This document shows, in pieces, positions 55,641 to 64,000 of a stretch of DNA of 64,000 nt; within the stretch, counting starts at the first letter, position 1; every line of letters begins with the position of its first letter. A program made the translations under genes and the position numbers. The notes under the pieces were generated by a model. It worked only from the letters and a program-made list of their open reading frames with translations, had not been told where the DNA came from and did no database searches. The stretch spans positions 62,001 to 126,000 of the forward strand of contig CAITNO010000110.1 of the NCBI GenBank assembly GCA_903893795.1, given 5' to 3'. The stretch is from Candidatus Hydrogenedentota bacterium. GTDB lineage: Bacteria; Hydrogenedentota; Hydrogenedentia; Hydrogenedentales; CAITNO01.

Positions 55641-55883
55641 GGGGTGCTCCTCTGGGGATAGTGCCATCTTAGTACAGAAGGGGAAGGCATGCCAATAACG
55701 CAACAGCGTGGGGCTGTCTGGCGGCAGGGCACGAGCGCAGTGCCCGTCATCCCCGCCGGTTGCCTGTTCCGTTTCAGCCTTTACCGAATACACGGGTATG
55801 ATAAAATAGAGTTTCAAGGAGCGCCGAAGGAGTGGGGGCGGGTTCTACGCTCGGCGTCGAATGGCAGCACAGGAGAATATTCA

Positions 55884-56924
55884 ATGAGACGGCTCTCATG
55901 GCCGACCAATGTGGCAATGCTGGCAGCCTGCCTTTTCATGGCCGGGTGCAACACCGTTTCCATCCCCGATGTGGTGGGCCAGACGCAGGACGCGGCGACC
56001 ACCGCCATCGGGGGGGCGGGCCTGAAAGTGAGCAAGGTCTCCCAGCAGTGCAGCAACACCGTGACGGCCGGACTGGTCGTCAGCCAGGACCCGGCGGCGG
56101 GAAAGCAGCAGTCGACCGTTTTCGGCGGGGTGACCCTGGTCGTCTCCACCGGGGAATGTCCCCTGACGGTGCCCAACGTGGTGGGGCAGACCCAGGCGGC
56201 GGCACGGGCGCTGATCACCGGGGTCAATTTAATCGTTGGCGCGGTAAACGAAGAGTACAGCGACTCCGTGGCGACGGGACAGGTCATCAGCCAGACGCCC
56301 GCCGCGAACGCAGTGACCACCCCGGGGAGCGCGGTCAATCTGGTGATTTCGCTGGGGGTGCATCCGATATACGGATCCCTGGCCATCAACAACCACGACC
56401 CTGTGACGAACAATCCCCAAGTCACCCTTGCCCTGACCTGGTCGGGCGGCGGGGGAACGGGCGTGAAAGACATGCGGTTCAGCGATGACGGGGCGCACTG
56501 GACGCTTTGGGAGGCGGTGAACACCGCCAAAACACACACGCTGACGGGCGGGGAGGGCCCGAACACCGTGCGGGCCCAATTCCGCGACAGCCTCTACAAC
56601 AAGTCCATCGTCTACAGTGACTACATTCTGCTGGACACCACGCCGCCCACGGGCAGCATGCTCATCAACAACGGGGCACCCCTCACGGCCAGCCCGACGG
56701 TCACGCTGACCCTCAGTTGGGACGATGGCGCGGGCAGCGGCGTAACGCTGATGCGGTTCAGTGAAGACGGGGCAAACTGGACGCTTTGGGAGACCGCGGC
56801 GGCCACGCGCAGCTACGCGCTGACAGCGGCCAACGGCAAGCACACGATACGGGTGGAGTATCAGGACGAGGCGGGCAACTACTCCCAGCCGTTCAGCGAC
56901 TACATCGACCTGGAGATACCGTAA
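55884..56924 (+). CDS. PASTA-domain lipoprotein
   Basis: 346 aa from ATG 55884 with AGGAG eight bases upstream; the track adds 65 codons. Lipobox in LFMAGCNT. Two PASTA domains (IPDVVGQTQDAATTAIGGAGL and VPNVVGQTQAAARALITG) are followed by two similar Ig-like repeats (SLAINNHDPVTNNPQVTLAL and MLINNGAPLTASPTVTLTL, each with MRFSDDGAHWTLWE-like cores). PASTA domains here are on a lipoprotein rather than a Ser/Thr kinase. A TTTACC-16-TAAAAT candidate promoter lies about 80 bases upstream. Confidence 0.82.
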   Translation: MRRLSWPTNVAMLAACLFMAGCNTVSIPDVVGQTQDAATTAIGGAGLKVSKVSQQCSNTVTAGLVVSQDPAAGKQQSTVFGGVTLVVSTGECPLTVPNVVGQTQAAARALITGVNLIVGAVNEEYSDSVATGQVISQTPAANAVTTPGSAVNLVISLGVHPIYGSLAINNHDPVTNNPQVTLALTWSGGGGTGVKDMRFSDDGAHWTLWEAVNTAKTHTLTGGEGPNTVRAQFRDSLYNKSIVYSDYILLDTTPPTGSMLINNGAPLTASPTVTLTLSWDDGAGSGVTLMRFSEDGANWTLWETAAATRSYALTAANGKHTIRVEYQDEAGNYSQPFSDYIDLEIP

Positions 56925-56970: not shown

Positions 56971-57696
56971 CTACCGGCGGTGGGTCCATTCGACCGTGGC
57001 GTATTTCTCGGTGACCAAACGGCGCATGGCGTCCACTTCATCCTGCGTGGGGGCTGAGGACACCTGTTCCGCTGAAAATACCTGGCTTACGGCGGCCCGC
57101 AACGCCTCGGGCGTCGGTGACAATTCGCCGACGAAGTCACGGTGGCTGCGTTTCCCGCGGTAATCGGGGCGGTCCTGCGGCTCGCGCAGACAGCGGGCCA
57201 TCCCCTCGTGGTCGGCGCGATAGAGGAGCGTGCCATGGTGCAGGAAAGCGTGCCTTTTTCTGCGCTGGGCGTTTCCCGAAACTTTTAGCCCCGACACGGC
57301 AAGGTCGCACACGCCCTCATGCCGCGCGGCCACGCCAAGGGAGGCCAATGCCTCGGACATGCGGTGCAGTATGAAGCAGTAGGACTGGTGCAGGTCGGCC
57401 GTTTCCGGAAATTCAGCGTAGGGAAGCATGAGCGCATAATTGAGACTGCCCGGCCCCTGCAGAACGCATCCGCCGGCCGTGCAGCGCCGCAGTATGGGCA
57501 CGCCGTCGGCGGCGCAGTGTTCCTCATTAACCTCTTTGCGCAGGGTCTGGGCCGAGCCCAGCACCACGAAACGCACGGGGCATTCCCAGAAACGCAGGGT
57601 GGCGGGGGCATTGCCCAACGCAACCGCGTCGAGGATTGCCTCGTCCATGGCGAGGTTTTCCTCGGGCGTGCTGAAACCAAGGTCGAGCAGGCGCAT
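56971..57696 (-). CDS. lplA: Lipoate-protein ligase A family protein
   Basis: 241 aa. It attaches lipoate (or octanoate) to lipoyl-domain proteins such as GcvH. The family motifs are RRCTAGGCVLQGPGSLNYAL and KVSGNAQRRKRHAFLHHGTLLY with the ligand-binding Lys. It is last in the glycine-cleavage operon, 9 bp after gcvPB, so GcvH is the obvious substrate. The small C-terminal accessory domain is short. Confidence 0.88.
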   Translation of the reverse strand: MRLLDLGFSTPEENLAMDEAILDAVALGNAPATLRFWECPVRFVVLGSAQTLRKEVNEEHCAADGVPILRRCTAGGCVLQGPGSLNYALMLPYAEFPETADLHQSYCFILHRMSEALASLGVAARHEGVCDLAVSGLKVSGNAQRRKRHAFLHHGTLLYRADHEGMARCLREPQDRPDYRGKRSHRDFVGELSPTPEALRAAVSQVFSAEQVSSAPTQDEVDAMRRLVTEKYATVEWTHRR

Positions 57697-57705
57697 GGGG
57701 ACCCG

Positions 57706-59148
57706 CTAGGTCAGGCAGGCGCAGTTGAGGTTCTTGGCCGCGCGCACCTCGTCCAACCGCGACACGGGCATGGTGACCGGCGCCGCGTGGAGCGCGTTGG
57801 GGTCCTCGTCGACCAGCCGGGCGATTTCGAGCATGGCGTCGCAGAAGAAATCCATGGTCTCCTTCGACTCCGTCTCAGTGGGCTCAATCATCAGGCATTC
57901 CCTAACGGTCATCGGGAAGTATATCGTGGGCGCGTGGAAGCCCCGGTCGAGCAGCGCCTTGGCGATGTCGAGCGCGTGAACACCCTTGTCCGCCTGGCGC
58001 GAGGCGCTCAGCACGCACTCGTGCATGCAGTTGCCCTCGAAGGCGGCCTGGTAGGCGCCGCGCAGCCGCGCAAACATGTAGTTCGCATTGAGCACGGCAT
58101 TCTCGCCCACGGAAGCCAGTCCGTCGCCGCCGTAGTGGCGCAGGAAGGCGTAGGCGCGCACGGCGATCAGGAAGTTGCCGAAGAAGGCGGCCATGCGGCC
58201 CATCGATTTGGGGATGGCTTCCAGGGTGTAGCCGTCCGGACCCTTCACCACTTTCGGGCCGGGCAGGTAGGGCAGCAGCCGTTCGCCGACGGCAATCGCG
58301 CCGGAACCGGGCCCGCCCATGCCGTGCGGGGTGGCGAAGGTCTTGTGCAGGTTGAAGTGCATCACGTCAAAACCCAGGTCGCCGGGGCGGCACTTGCCGA
58401 CAATGGCGTTGAGGTTTGCGCCGTCGTAGTACAGCAGCGCATCAACCGCGTGGGCGCGCTCGGCCACCTCGTGCACTTTGGGCTCAAAGAGGCCGTGCGT
58501 GTTGGGGCAGGTCATCATCACGCCCGCCACGGTGTCGTCCAGCGCTTCCACCAGCTTGTCGAAATCCATCGTGCCGGCGGCGGTGGACGGAATCTCGCGC
58601 ACCTCGAAACCGGCCATGGCGGCCGTGGCGGGGTTGGTGCCATGGGCCGAATCGGGAATGAGGATGGTGCGCTTGTGGGTGTTGCCCTTGTCGCGGTGAT
58701 AGGCGGCTATCAGCAGCACACCGGCCAGTTCGCCGTGCGCGCCGGCCATGGGCTGGAGACAGCCTGCCTTCATTCCGCCAATTTCGGCCAGCATGCGCTC
58801 GGTTTCAAAGACCAGTTCCAGCGCGCCCTGGCAGACCGGTTCGTAAACCTTGGCCGTGGACAGGTGGGGATGCAGCGCGGCAAAGCCCGGGAGGGCGGCG
58901 ACGAGTTCGGAAACCTTGGGGTTGTACTTCATGGTGCAGGAGCCAAGCGGATAGAAATGGCTGTCCACGCCAAAATTAAGCCGGGAAAGCAGGGTAAAAT
59001 GGCGCACCACATCCAATTCGCCCACCTCGGGCAGTGGCAGGGCGGCGGTCCGGCAAAACTCGGTACTGAGGGGTGCCTCGGGCACGTCGAGCGGTTCGAG
59101 CGACACGGCGCGCCGACCGGCGCGGCTTTTTTCAAAGATTAGTTCCAC
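57706..59148 (-). CDS. gcvPB: Glycine dehydrogenase (decarboxylating) subunit 2
   Basis: 480 aa. The PLP-binding half of the two-subunit P-protein. LGSCTMKYNPKVSE, DSAHGTNPATAAMAGFEV and NLHKTFATPHGMGGPGSG (with the PLP Lys) are diagnostic. It decarboxylates glycine and passes the aminomethyl group to GcvH. It overlaps gcvPA by 17 bp. Confidence 0.95.
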   Translation of the reverse strand: MELIFEKSRAGRRAVSLEPLDVPEAPLSTEFCRTAALPLPEVGELDVVRHFTLLSRLNFGVDSHFYPLGSCTMKYNPKVSELVAALPGFAALHPHLSTAKVYEPVCQGALELVFETERMLAEIGGMKAGCLQPMAGAHGELAGVLLIAAYHRDKGNTHKRTILIPDSAHGTNPATAAMAGFEVREIPSTAAGTMDFDKLVEALDDTVAGVMMTCPNTHGLFEPKVHEVAERAHAVDALLYYDGANLNAIVGKCRPGDLGFDVMHFNLHKTFATPHGMGGPGSGAIAVGERLLPYLPGPKVVKGPDGYTLEAIPKSMGRMAAFFGNFLIAVRAYAFLRHYGGDGLASVGENAVLNANYMFARLRGAYQAAFEGNCMHECVLSASRQADKGVHALDIAKALLDRGFHAPTIYFPMTVRECLMIEPTETESKETMDFFCDAMLEIARLVDEDPNALHAAPVTMPVSRLDEVRAAKNLNCACLT

Positions 59149-60430
59149 TGCACAGCTCCTTCAGCGCGTCGGCATACGCGTCCAGTTCGGCGCGCGTGCG
59201 CTTTTCCGTAACCGCCACGAGCAGGTCGCCCTCCCCGCCTGCACCCACCGCCGCAAGCGGCAGGCCGGCCAGGAATCCGCGGCCCAGCATCGCGGCGCAC
59301 ACATTCTCGGCAGGCCGGGGCAGGCGCACGGCAAATTCGTGGAAGGTGGGGCCGTCATTCAGCACGGGGGCAAAAGCGGCGATGCGGGACTTGAGATATT
59401 CGGCCTTGGCGTGGCAGGCCTGGGCCGTCTGCCGCAGCCCTTCGGGTCCCATGAGGCACAGGTACATGAGCGCGCGCAGCGCGCACAGCGCCTGGTTTGA
59501 ACAAATGTTCGAGTTGGCCTTTTCGCGGCGGATATGCTGCTCGCGGGCCTGCAGGGTCAGCACAAAGCCGCGCCGTCCTTCGGCATCGACGGTCTCGCCA
59601 ACGATGCGGCCGGGCATCTTGCGGATGTGCTCCTTGCGGGCCGCCAGGATGCCGAGATAGGGACCGCCAAAACCCAGCGGCAACCCCAGACCCTGGCCCT
59701 CGGCCACGGCAATGTCGGCGCCCATGTCTCCGGGCGTCTTGAGCACGCCAAGCGAGACGGGATTGAAAATCACCACAAACAGCGCACCGGCTTCCCGGCA
59801 GCGCTGGCCCAATTCTGTAAAATCGCCCACCGTGCCCAGGAACGAGGGGTTCTGGACGATGACGCAGGCGGCCCCGGTGGGGTCCGCGCCGTCCACGATA
59901 TCAAGTCCGAGTTTGGCGCAGTGCGTGAGCAGCATACCCCGCCACACGGGGTTTACCGAAGCGTCCAAGACCACGCGTGTCCGGCGCGTGGCGCGACAGG
60001 CCATGGTGGCCGCCTCGAACATGGCAGTGCCGCCGTCGTAAAGCGAGGCGTTGGCGCATTCCATGCCTGAAAGGCGGCAGACGGCAGACTGGTATTCGTA
60101 GATGGATTGCAGGGTGCCCTGGGAACATTCGGGCTGATAGGGCGTGTAGGCGGTGTAGAACTCGCTGCGGCCGGAAAGGGCGTCGATGGCCGCGGGAATG
60201 AAATGGTCGTAGTAGCCACCGCCCAGGAAGCAGGCCAAATCGGTGTTGTTGCGCGCCGCCAGCCGCTCCATGTGCGTCCGCAACGCCATTTCGGAAAGGC
60301 CCGGGGGCATGTCCCATCCCCGCATGCGCAGTGCCTCGGGCACCGCCGCAAACAGGTCCTCCACCGAATCCACCCCGATCGTGTCCAGCATTTCCCGCCG
60401 TTCCGAATCGGTCACCGGTATCCAAGTCAT
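59132..60430 (-). CDS. gcvPA: Glycine dehydrogenase (decarboxylating) subunit 1
   Basis: 432 aa from ATG 60430 (MTWIPVTDSERREMLDTIG), with AGGAG eight bases upstream; the track adds 28 codons. Typical motifs: YTPYQPECSQGTLQSIYEYQ, DGGTAMFEAATMACRATRR and LGFGGPYLGILAARKEHIRKMPGRIVG. It pairs with GcvPB to make the functional P-protein. Confidence 0.95.
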   Translation of the reverse strand: MTWIPVTDSERREMLDTIGVDSVEDLFAAVPEALRMRGWDMPPGLSEMALRTHMERLAARNNTDLACFLGGGYYDHFIPAAIDALSGRSEFYTAYTPYQPECSQGTLQSIYEYQSAVCRLSGMECANASLYDGGTAMFEAATMACRATRRTRVVLDASVNPVWRGMLLTHCAKLGLDIVDGADPTGAACVIVQNPSFLGTVGDFTELGQRCREAGALFVVIFNPVSLGVLKTPGDMGADIAVAEGQGLGLPLGFGGPYLGILAARKEHIRKMPGRIVGETVDAEGRRGFVLTLQAREQHIRREKANSNICSNQALCALRALMYLCLMGPEGLRQTAQACHAKAEYLKSRIAAFAPVLNDGPTFHEFAVRLPRPAENVCAAMLGRGFLAGLPLAAVGAGGEGDLLVAVTEKRTRAELDAYADALKELCSGTNL

Positions 60431-60563: not shown

Positions 60564-60944
60564 CTACCGTCCCTGGCAGAAGGCGCGATAGGCGGTGTAG
60601 GTCATGAGTTCGGCGTATTCGACGGCATCATACTTCTTGAGCTTGAAGAACCAGCCGCGCCCGTAGGGGTCACGGTTCACCAGGTCGGTTTCATTCTCCA
60701 CCTGCTCATTAATCTCGGCGACCTCGCCCGAAAGCGGCGCATACACGTCGCTGGCGGCCTTGACGGACTCCACCACGGCGGCCTCTTCGCCGCGCTTGAG
60801 GCGCTGGCCGATCTTGGGCAGTTCCACGTAGGTCACGTCACCCAACTGTTCCTGGGCATAGTCGGTGATGCCGACCACGCACAGGCCGTTCTGCTCGCCC
60901 ACCCATTCATGGTCCATGGTGTATCGCAGGCTTTCGGGATTCAT
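60564..60944 (-). CDS. gcvH: Glycine cleavage system H protein
   Basis: 126 aa. The lipoyl Lys sits in VVESVKAASDVYAPLSGEV; DHEWVGEQNGLCVVGITDYAQEQLGDVTYVELP is the H-protein start. AGGAG seven bases before the ATG. It shuttles the aminomethyl arm between P, T and L proteins. No L protein (lpd) gene is in the window. Confidence 0.95.
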   Translation of the reverse strand: MNPESLRYTMDHEWVGEQNGLCVVGITDYAQEQLGDVTYVELPKIGQRLKRGEEAAVVESVKAASDVYAPLSGEVAEINEQVENETDLVNRDPYGRGWFFKLKKYDAVEYAELMTYTAYRAFCQGR

Positions 60945-60988: not shown

Positions 60989-62065
60989 CTAGTCCAGCCG
61001 CACACGGCAGGTTCCGCCTTTATAGACAGGCACCTCGGCGACAGTTATTTTCATGTCCTTGGGTCCGGCGCTCAGGCACGTGCCCGGCACCGCCGCACCC
61101 GCCTCCAAATAGGCCAGTGCAACGCCCCGGCCCACACTGGGGCCAAAGGTGCCGCTGGTCACGGCGCCCACGGGCCGCCCGTCAAGACGCAGTTCAAAGC
61201 CGTGACGGGGCGCGCGCCGGTCCGACGAGACCACGGGCGTCAGCAGCGGGTAACCGCCGCGTTCGCGCATTTCAAGCAACCGGGCTTTGCCCGGAAAATC
61301 AGTTTCCCACGCAATGAACCGTTCCATGCCGGCCTCGAGCGGCGTGCGCGACTCATCCACATCCTCGCCGTTCAACGGATAGCACATCTCCGTCCGTAGC
61401 GTGTCCCGGGCGCCCAGCCCGCAGGGCACCGCCATGCTGTGGGCCAGTATGGCGTCCCACACGTCGGCGGCCATTTCGGCGGGCAGGTACAGTTCGTAGC
61501 CCAGTTCGCCGGTGTAGCCCGCGCGCGACACGATAATCTCGGCGCCGCGCCACTCACAGCGCGTGCCCGACCAGTATTTCAGCGGCGCAATCCCGGCGAG
61601 GCCTAATTCCAGCAGAATCTGCCTGGATTGCGGTCCCTGCAGGTCAAGTTTCGCCGTTCGGTTGTATACAGACTCGATACCGGGGATTGTGGTGTCGAAC
61701 ATCGCCGTGACCGCGTCCAAGGGACCCGCATTGGTCACCAAATAGAGCTCTTCCGGACCCAGCCGAAGGGCGACACAATCGTCGATAATGCCGCCCGAAT
61801 CATTCAAAAGGGCGGTGTAACGGCACCGACCCGCTGCAAGGTGAACCATGTCGCCGATGACCATCCGGTCCAGCGCGGCGATGCCCGCCTCGCCCCGGAT
61901 GATGAATTCACCCATGTGTGAGCAGTCAAAAAGGCCCGCACGCGTCCTTGTGGCCGTGTGTTCTTCGATTATTCCGGAGAACTGGACAGGCAACGCCCAT
62001 CCGTGGAAATCCACAACACGGGCACCGCATCGCGCATAGCTCTCAAACAGCGGCGTCTTACGCAT
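60989..62065 (-). CDS. gcvT: Glycine cleavage system T protein (aminomethyltransferase)
   Basis: 358 aa from ATG 62065 (MRKTPLFESYARCGARVVDFHGWALPVQF); the track start is 14 codons earlier. The folate-binding region is intact: GLFDCSHMGEFIIRGEA, GIIDDCVALRLG and GYTGELGYELYLP. It moves the one-carbon unit to tetrahydrofolate. First gene of the operon, directly after the ZTP riboswitch. Confidence 0.95.
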   Translation of the reverse strand: MRKTPLFESYARCGARVVDFHGWALPVQFSGIIEEHTATRTRAGLFDCSHMGEFIIRGEAGIAALDRMVIGDMVHLAAGRCRYTALLNDSGGIIDDCVALRLGPEELYLVTNAGPLDAVTAMFDTTIPGIESVYNRTAKLDLQGPQSRQILLELGLAGIAPLKYWSGTRCEWRGAEIIVSRAGYTGELGYELYLPAEMAADVWDAILAHSMAVPCGLGARDTLRTEMCYPLNGEDVDESRTPLEAGMERFIAWETDFPGKARLLEMRERGGYPLLTPVVSSDRRAPRHGFELRLDGRPVGAVTSGTFGPSVGRGVALAYLEAGAAVPGTCLSAGPKDMKITVAEVPVYKGGTCRVRLD

Positions 62066-62114
62066 GGCCGAACCTTTTCCGGACAAACCGGCGGTTTCAG
62101 CCCCCAAGTTAGCG

Positions 62115-62206
62115 TCAGCGCCCAGGCGAGCGGCTCCATTTCACGTGATCCGCTGCTCCACCGTGGTCAATGCCACGTTTACACTCGCCAGTCACAGCGG
62201 ACCCCA
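62115..62206 (-). promoter_or_regulatory. ZTP (pfl) riboswitch controlling the gcv operon
   Basis: On the minus strand the leader contains the two conserved ZTP blocks in order: GTGACTGGCG, then CCACGGTGGAGC, a linker, and CGCTCGCCTGGGC. P1 forms by TCCGCT with AGCGGA, flanking the first block, and P2 by GTGG/CCAC with a 6-base loop. ZTP/ZMP riboswitches sense a purine intermediate that accumulates when 10-formyl-THF is short, and they control purine and one-carbon genes, so gcvT is an expected target. A later stem (GCCGG/CCGG near the AAAGG ribosome site) suggests control of translation rather than a terminator. Confidence 0.9.
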
Positions 62207-62223
62207 GCCCCGGGGACGTGCCC

Positions 62224-62252
62224 ATCATGCCATATTTTGGCCACCGGGTCAA
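62224..62252 (-). promoter_or_regulatory. Promoter of the gcv operon
   Basis: On the minus strand TTGACC, 17 bases, CATGAT. Transcription would start about 10 bases upstream of the riboswitch, which supports both calls. The rest of the 396-bp gap (62253-62461) shows no gene. Confidence 0.6.
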
Positions 62253-62461
62253 GTTTTACCGTCTTTTCTTATATAGAATGCCCCGTCAAACACACGCGTT
62301 CCCAAAACAGGACACGTCCGCGCGGGTCACGATTTTGCCCATACGGGGCAAGAGGCGGGACAGTGCAGGTCCCCTGCGGCGCAGCCGGAATCGCGTGCCT
62401 TCCATATCTTGCCGACTCCATGAACACACTGAGTGAGCGCCTAAATGGAAACGCTTCGGTC

Positions 62462-64000
62462 CTACCCCAGAAGCTCCCGGCGCGCCGCCTCAAACGCGAC
62501 CACCGCGCGGTCCGAATGGTCCGGCGGAAAGAGCAACCAGCCACAATGAACCCGCTCCATGCCTTTTGCCCGCAGTACCAGCGTTGGGGCCGCTTCGGCT
62601 ATGCCGAAGCGTGGACAATACCATCCCTGGTCGGGATCGTGTTTGCCCTGCAGCGCTTCGACGCGGTCCGCGCATTCGGGCATTATACCCAGCCGGGCCT
62701 CACCCCGCTGCGCCATCCAGACGCCTTCCGACTCGGTCAGTTCCGTGCCTGGATGAAAGTGGAGAAAACTCTCCACCTCAAGTAAACCCGTTCCCTCGAC
62801 ACGGTCCAGCACCGCCCAAAATCCAGCATCGGGGTCATGACGGACACAGCGGGTGTGCGTCCAGCCCTGCGACCAGCAGCAGCGGCCGCTGAATGTGGAT
62901 GCGCGGCCGCTCCTCTCCCATTCTGCCGACACTATCCGGTGGCGGCGCGCCACCCGGAACACGCCCCAGGCCTCCATGGGTTCCTGGCCGTTGATGCGGA
63001 CCGTGTTGTGCGCGCCTGCACTGCGGCAGTACTGCCGCAGCGGACTGTCGGCGTAGCCGTGGCAACCGCCGTCCACGATTAAACGTTGGCCTGCCATGGA
63101 AAGTTCGAAGGAGAATGGGTCGGCATGGGCGTGGCCGGGCTGATAGGGCGGACTGGGTGCGGCGGCTTTCAGAATCATGCGGTTCGCAGCGCCGCCAAGC
63201 ACATAGAACCCGGAGTCCTGCAACGCGGGGCGTTCTTCCAGGGACGGTTCCATCCGCAGGACTTCACGGGAAAGTCTTACCAGCGCCCCGCCAGGCATCG
63301 TTTCGCCAAACACGGCATCGCTGAAGAGCGGGATCTCGCCGTCGGGATGCAGGATATCCTCCAGAAAGTGGGTCATACGCCGCAGGGCATTGTCGAAAAA
63401 GGCGGGCGGGCCTGCCGCCGCGGCGCGCAGCACCAGCCCGTCGAAAAGGGCCTGCGCGTGATACATCGGACTGCGTTCATAATGTCCGCCATCGGGAAGA
63501 ATCTGCTCGACAATCTGCTCCTCCACCAGTTCCCATGCGCGCTGCCGCAACGGGACATTGCCGGTGGCTTCCGCCACCAGCGCCAGCGCCATCACCTCTT
63601 TGAGCAGATGGTTTGCGCACAGGTCATATTCCAGCCGCCGCTCCAGCCAGCCGGCCTGCTGGGCGCAGTCTGCCGCCGTAACACCGCATTCGGCGCCCAG
63701 CGCCGAGGCGGCCAGCAAGCCGTTGAACAAGCGGTCCGCCGTGGGGTGGGCATCCCAGGCCACGTCCGTCCCCGGCGGGTTGTGCCGCAGCCAGTCCTCC
63801 ACCCAGCGGGCGACCTGCGCCGCGTCATCGCCTGCAGTCACTTCGGAAGCTGCAGCGGCAAGCATTCGGGCCATGCGAAACCCATGGAGCTGATAGCGCC
63901 AAAGGCGGGAGAGGGACGCGTCCTGCCAGGGAATTTTGGCATTGCAGTCCACGCTTTGGTTCAAGAATGTGAATGTGTCGGCCCGAAGTGCCGACAGGTC
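62462..64000 (-). CDS. Heparinase II/III family lyase, N-terminus outside the window
   Basis: The track starts at a TTG at 63964, but the frame stays open to the window edge (the codons before it read ...RADTFTF), so the gene is truncated at its 5' end. The visible part has the family's alpha-toroid start (SLSRLWRYQLHGFRMA) and EVMALALVAEATGN, DGGHYERSPMYHAQ with the catalytic His/Tyr region, then the beta-sheet domain (PGHAHADPFSFELSMAGQRLIVDGG, the His-rich site). Such enzymes cleave acidic polysaccharides (heparin, alginate, oligoalginate). The substrate cannot be told from the sequence. Confidence 0.9.
   Translation of the reverse strand, partial: DLSALRADTFTFLNQSVDCNAKIPWQDASLSRLWRYQLHGFRMARMLAAAASEVTAGDDAAQVARWVEDWLRHNPPGTDVAWDAHPTADRLFNGLLAASALGAECGVTAADCAQQAGWLERRLEYDLCANHLLKEVMALALVAEATGNVPLRQRAWELVEEQIVEQILPDGGHYERSPMYHAQALFDGLVLRAAAAGPPAFFDNALRRMTHFLEDILHPDGEIPLFSDAVFGETMPGGALVRLSREVLRMEPSLEERPALQDSGFYVLGGAANRMILKAAAPSPPYQPGHAHADPFSFELSMAGQRLIVDGGCHGYADSPLRQYCRSAGAHNTVRINGQEPMEAWGVFRVARRHRIVSAEWERSGRASTFSGRCCWSQGWTHTRCVRHDPDAGFWAVLDRVEGTGLLEVESFLHFHPGTELTESEGVWMAQRGEARLGIMPECADRVEALQGKHDPDQGWYCPRFGIAEAAPTLVLRAKGMERVHCGWLLFPPDHSDRAVVAFEAARRELLG

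Follow-up and report, generated by a model that had tools for sequence, protein, structure and literature searches.

A predicted ZMP/ZTP riboswitch ahead of the glycine-cleavage operon, conserved across nearly the whole phylum Hydrogenedentota

The ZTP riboswitch class was reportedly defined by Kim et al. in 2015. In its transcriptional ON members from Fusobacterium ulcerans, Clostridium beijerinckii and Thermosinus carboxydivorans, the 3' strand of the aptamer is common to the ligand-bound aptamer and the expression platform (PMC7484762, PMC10907184). The genes of glycine cleavage are controlled by the glycine riboswitch, or gcvT motif (PMC7266159), and tandem ZTP/glycine riboswitches were reported in a 2022 survey (PMC9481103). 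Our literature search turned up no paper tying a ZTP riboswitch to gcv genes and no paper on riboswitches in Hydrogenedentes; the gene list of the class-defining 2015 study lay outside that search, and a prior report is possible. The leader described here is a new example of this known riboswitch class, with a gcv target that we have not found reported.

The window, by which we mean the whole 64-kb stretch of DNA that was analyzed, belongs to a Candidatus Hydrogenedentota MAG of 7.0 Mb that is 88% complete, and the closest GcvT sequences (87-88% identical) come from Candidatus Hydrogenedentes MAGs. The leader and the operon that follows it have these features:

62224-62252, minus strand: promoter, with -35 TTGACC, 17-nt spacer and extended -10 TGGCATGAT (9/12 consensus positions)
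62113-62205, minus strand: ZMP/ZTP riboswitch aptamer (RF01750; 55.9 bits, gathering 39; pairs checked)
62066-62102, minus strand: hairpin around the Shine-Dalgarno, with the gcvT ATG immediately after it; a candidate for the expression platform (folding, congeners)
62073-62080, minus strand: Shine-Dalgarno GGAAAAGG of gcvT (sequence; kept in congeners)
60989-62065, minus strand: gcvT, aminomethyltransferase or T-protein (TIGR00528, 286 bits, cut-off 235.85)
60564-60944, minus strand: gcvH, lipoyl carrier or H-protein (TIGR00527, 144.9 bits, cut-off 115.85)
59132-60430, minus strand: gcvPA, glycine dehydrogenase subunit 1 (NF001696, 569.6 bits, cut-off 364)
57706-59148, minus strand: gcvPB, glycine dehydrogenase subunit 2 (NF003346, 677.3 bits, cut-off 441)
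56971-57696, minus strand: lplA-like lipoate-protein ligase or octanoyltransferase (PF21948, 141 bits, cut-off 27)

When the window was searched with the Rfam covariance models (4227 families), RF01750 (ZMP-ZTP) was the sole family over threshold, matching 62205-62113 on the minus strand over its full length (model positions 1-86 of 86) with an E-value of 2.2e-6. An earlier sequence-only reading had called a ZTP riboswitch within 62115-62252 and had proposed just such a search as a check; the score clears the family threshold and the element stands, with the limits of the aptamer corrected to 62113-62205. The two conserved blocks on which that call was based (ACUGGCG and GCCG..CGCCUGGGC) are both present, as are P1 (10 of 10 pairs standard) and P2 (GUGG/CCAC), and to these can be added a P3 core of three GCC/GGC pairs, its outer two positions partly unpaired, and all four pairs of the GGCG/CGCC pseudoknot. 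On inspection the leader reads GACUGGCG, CGUGG..CCACG, GGAGC and GCCGCUCGCCUGGGC. The aptamer lies in the 5' leader of a one-carbon gene, 47 nt from the gcvT ATG, and is near-invariant among three congeners despite fully diverged, unrelated DNA further upstream, arguing for selection on the aptamer. The leader at 62205-62113 is thus confirmed by its covariance match as a genuine ZTP riboswitch ahead of a complete gcv operon, with binding of ZMP/ZTP as the prediction. No second ZTP aptamer over threshold was found when the Rfam model was run on the whole MAG. A glycine riboswitch in this leader was rejected, as the window has no match to one at the Rfam threshold.

The promoter that had been placed about 10 bases upstream, TTGACC-17-CATGAT with a TG ahead of the -10, was found at 62252-62224 on the minus strand (0.3 expected in shuffles), and it is kept in two congeners whose flanks diverge. 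Its -10 element ends 18 nt before the aptamer, which puts the likely transcription start about 10-12 nt before the aptamer.

The gene order gcvT-gcvH-gcvPA-gcvPB-lplA also holds. The T and H proteins and both P subunits exceed the curated NCBIfam cut-offs, identifying a glycine-cleavage operon, and the lplA product is an LplA/LipB-fold enzyme by its Pfam cut-off, under the NCBIfam cut-offs; gcvPA-gcvPB is the only P-protein pair in the window's genome. By homology gcvT starts at ATG 62065, with GGAAAAGG ahead of it, and the upstream TTG 62107 of a mechanical ORF list was rejected on the same ground. When the operon region was scanned, the operon strand showed neither a strong internal promoter nor a strong internal terminator. 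A single weak terminator-like match falls within gcvPA, and the region as a whole has no excess of such matches over shuffled sequence. The whole operon would be switched as a unit, despite a gap of 133 nt between gcvH and gcvPA. Beyond lplA lies a convergent gene (55689-56924) whose product has PASTA domains and repeats, and the same-strand gene upstream of the leader (62462-63964) encodes a heparinase II/III-like protein.

The link between the aptamer and gcvT is conserved across nearly the whole phylum. An aptamer over threshold was found in 59 of 68 phylum genomes, and 73 of the 76 ZTP loci could be assigned to a downstream gene by tblastn; two of the other three run off their contigs, and the third precedes what looks by eye like a purH reading frame. 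The assigned loci comprise 54 before gcvT and 19 before purH (PF01808), with none before any other gene. Counted by genome, the aptamer precedes gcvT only in 40 (the window's genome among them), both genes in 14 and purH only in 5. The window's genome does have purH, without an aptamer ahead of it (L150, C105:8592-9707), and no genome of the window's family has an assigned ZTP-purH locus, leaving gcv as the sole ZTP target seen in that family. Seven genomes of the order that have no aptamer could be judged by gcvT, and in most of these gcvT is not present in full or its leader is missing; the exception that stands out most is G028, a 99% complete genome with a gcvT that has no aptamer (L157) and lies downstream of an unrelated reading frame. 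Among 74 distinct aptamers, P1 pairing is held through compensatory changes involving many pair types. The pseudoknot is paired in 99-100% of them and is nearly invariant, so covariation provides no test of it.

Outside the phylum, neither a ZTP nor a glycine riboswitch reached threshold at the gcvT loci from 11 Omnitrophota and from 11 further bacteria, and no ZTP aptamer was found in 198 genomes of the phylum of Saprospiraceae. The phylum-level group of Sedimentibacter (Bacillota) has the aptamer in 34 of 200 genomes; none of 30 loci read there precedes gcvT and, judged by tblastn and by their first residues, the neighboring genes resemble pfl, purH and others. The 193 Omnitrophota genomes have four over-threshold aptamers, all before a pfl-like gene, together with two sub-threshold ZTP-like aptamers (33.9 and 32.4 bits) before gcvT. 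The 32.4-bit example (L211:1501-1620) is followed, ahead of gcvT, by CCUGG..CCAGG and eight U, and such a P3-competing hairpin with a U-tract is, by its sequence, a predicted transcriptional ON design. With these two weak cases outside the phylum, the link to gcv is strongly characteristic of Hydrogenedentota without being confined to them.

How might the aptamer act on gcvT? The reading that we consider likely is that of a ZTP riboswitch leader in which ZMP/ZTP exposes the ribosome site and so increases translation of the operon from gcvT onward, supplying one-carbon units; within it, the ligand, the ON direction and control at translation are what we infer. A comparison of expression platforms within the phylum bears on this question. 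With a terminator defined as a complement of at least 7 bases to the strand CGCCUGGGC followed by a U-rich stretch, P3-competing terminators occur in 11 of 19 purH leaders vs 0 of 54 gcvT leaders. Several purH loci (L047, L055, L061, L165, L171, L175 and others) combine the P3-strand terminator with an alternative hairpin that absorbs the U-tract, an antiterminator design. The idea that ligand turns the purH leaders OFF was rejected, since the hairpin that accompanies a closed P3 incorporates the U-tract, the behavior expected of an antiterminator.

The gcvT leaders are distinguished instead by their Shine-Dalgarno sequences, which in many cases read AGGC(G) and are complementary to the CGCCU pseudoknot strand of the aptamer. 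In the 22 bases ahead of the start, AGGC is present in 28/53 gcvT leaders vs 3/50 for gcvH and 0/19 for purH (by genus, gcvT 19/34 vs gcvH 3/33; Fisher 6e-5), and AGGCG, a motif picked after the leaders had been viewed, in 16/53 vs 1/50 and 0/19 (by genus, 12/34 vs 1/33; p 0.001). Furthermore, the AGGCG leaders have a variable loop base two positions 5' of CGCC, and it pairs with the base two positions 3' of AGGCG in 9 of 12 genera (permutation p 0.008), or 11 of 16 individual loci (p 0.012), with A-U, U-A, G-C and U-G all represented; these loci have common ancestry, which the collapse to genera lessens and does not remove. Since CGCC also pairs with the aptamer's own GGCG, it would be contested between the Shine-Dalgarno and the aptamer core, and this competition predicts more translation upon ligand binding. 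When leaders were folded with and without the aptamer constraint, the group-wide rise in Shine-Dalgarno accessibility was equalled by that of chimeric leaders (0.046 vs 0.046, p 0.27), and it was therefore discarded as evidence of switching. Many gcvT leaders (L019, L037, L040, L042, L054 and L058 among them) have a hairpin of variable sequence directly before the Shine-Dalgarno, which may act as a spacer, drawing the ribosome site near the aptamer strand.

The window's own leader departs from this pattern. Its Shine-Dalgarno, GGAAAAGG, is without the AGGCG mimic of the relatives and is embedded in a hairpin (62102-62066, GGCUGAA..UUCGGCC) that is kept in three congeners and has a computed stability of -18 kcal/mol, with a z-score of -2.97 for the chosen 40-base segment and 0.35 for 73 bases. 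Constrained folding left the accessibility of the Shine-Dalgarno in this leader unchanged when the aptamer was enforced (0.69 to 0.71), and direct pairing between P3 and the Shine-Dalgarno was rejected as weak and interrupted. The sequence-only reading had proposed control at translation with no terminator. The second part is borne out, as 61500-62900 contains no terminator-like site; the first is favored by the gcvT leaders of the phylum, with their missing terminators and complementary Shine-Dalgarno sequences, but the window itself lacks the mimic and its folding gives no shift. We offer, as a tentative scheme that could well be wrong, a single design for the phylum, in which one ZTP aptamer would govern purH through termination of transcription and gcv at the level of translation, the AGGCG Shine-Dalgarno mimicking GGCG and competing for CGCC, with the window's genus having swapped to a separate hairpin.

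Most ZTP riboswitches studied so far are transcriptional ON (PMC7484762, PMC2864571), and both the purH leaders of the same phylum and one Omnitrophota gcvT leader share such a design, so the window's riboswitch might have transcription as its point of control, by way of Rho or a non-canonical terminator, and not the ribosome site. We judge this unlikely, given the absence of terminator-like sites around the leader and of a P3 complement with U-tract from all 54 gcvT leaders, and an aptamer-ATG leader of only 47 nt. The logic in the window's genus might also be reversed, with ligand letting the hairpin at 62102-62066 form (OFF) and the free RNA pairing the CGCCGG arm of that hairpin with ACUGGCG, thereby freeing the ribosome site. 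Indeed, a 7-base pairing of CGCCGGU with ACUGGCG is available to the window and to one congener, the hairpin folds stably by itself and is kept across the genus, and for moeA, ZTP riboswitches of the OFF type have already been suggested (PMC9481103); however, the pairing was spotted by eye and carries no chance estimate, the relatives point to ON, and shutting off a one-carbon source during a shortage of 10-formyl-THF would make poor metabolic sense, so that we regard this arrangement as quite improbable. That the aptamer is a degenerate one kept by descent, its switching lost in the window's genus, is very hard to credit: its 55.9 bits fall below many relatives (up to 68.8), it is without their mimic and purH in the window's genome has lost its aptamer, but all conserved blocks and pairs are intact and three congeners keep it near-invariant despite diverged upstream DNA.

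Under the preferred reading, in which ligand turns on translation, a shortage of 10-formyl-THF would lead to accumulation of ZMP and ZTP, as PurH would be unable to formylate ZMP. Binding of ZMP/ZTP would lock P3 and the GGCG/CGCC pseudoknot. The alternative state of gcvT leaders in the phylum would have the Shine-Dalgarno region paired with the CGCCU strand or its 3' neighbor, and ligand binding would thus expose the ribosome site and increase translation from gcvT onward; in the window's leader this last step would be carried out by the different hairpin at 62102-62066. Glycine cleavage would then yield 5,10-methylene-THF and, via folate interconversion, 10-formyl-THF. A response to folate stress is suggested by analogy, from the riboswitch class. 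The recurrence of a ZTP sensor before gcv genes throughout the phylum argues that Hydrogenedentota probably raise the supply of one-carbon units from glycine when 10-formyl-folate is short.

These results extend the ZTP regulon to the glycine-cleavage system, which is its main conserved target in an uncultured phylum, and glycine as a one-carbon source when 10-formyl-THF is short makes metabolic sense. The Shine-Dalgarno of the relatives, in mimicking a pseudoknot strand, provides a concrete and testable model for translational ZTP switches, the less studied form of the class. The glycine riboswitch likewise stands before gcv genes, but it senses glycine and its aptamer is unrelated to that of the window. 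With the known ZMP/ZTP riboswitches (pfl motif, RF01750) the window's aptamer has in common the full-length match, the conserved blocks, P1-P3 and the pseudoknot; it differs from them in its target, the gcv operon, and in a platform without a terminator. The riboswitches of F. ulcerans, C. beijerinckii and T. carboxydivorans form their terminator from the P3 strand, whereas the gcvT leaders here have none; the sharing of the aptamer's 3' strand with the expression platform, known from those three riboswitches, is also predicted for many of the gcvT relatives described here.
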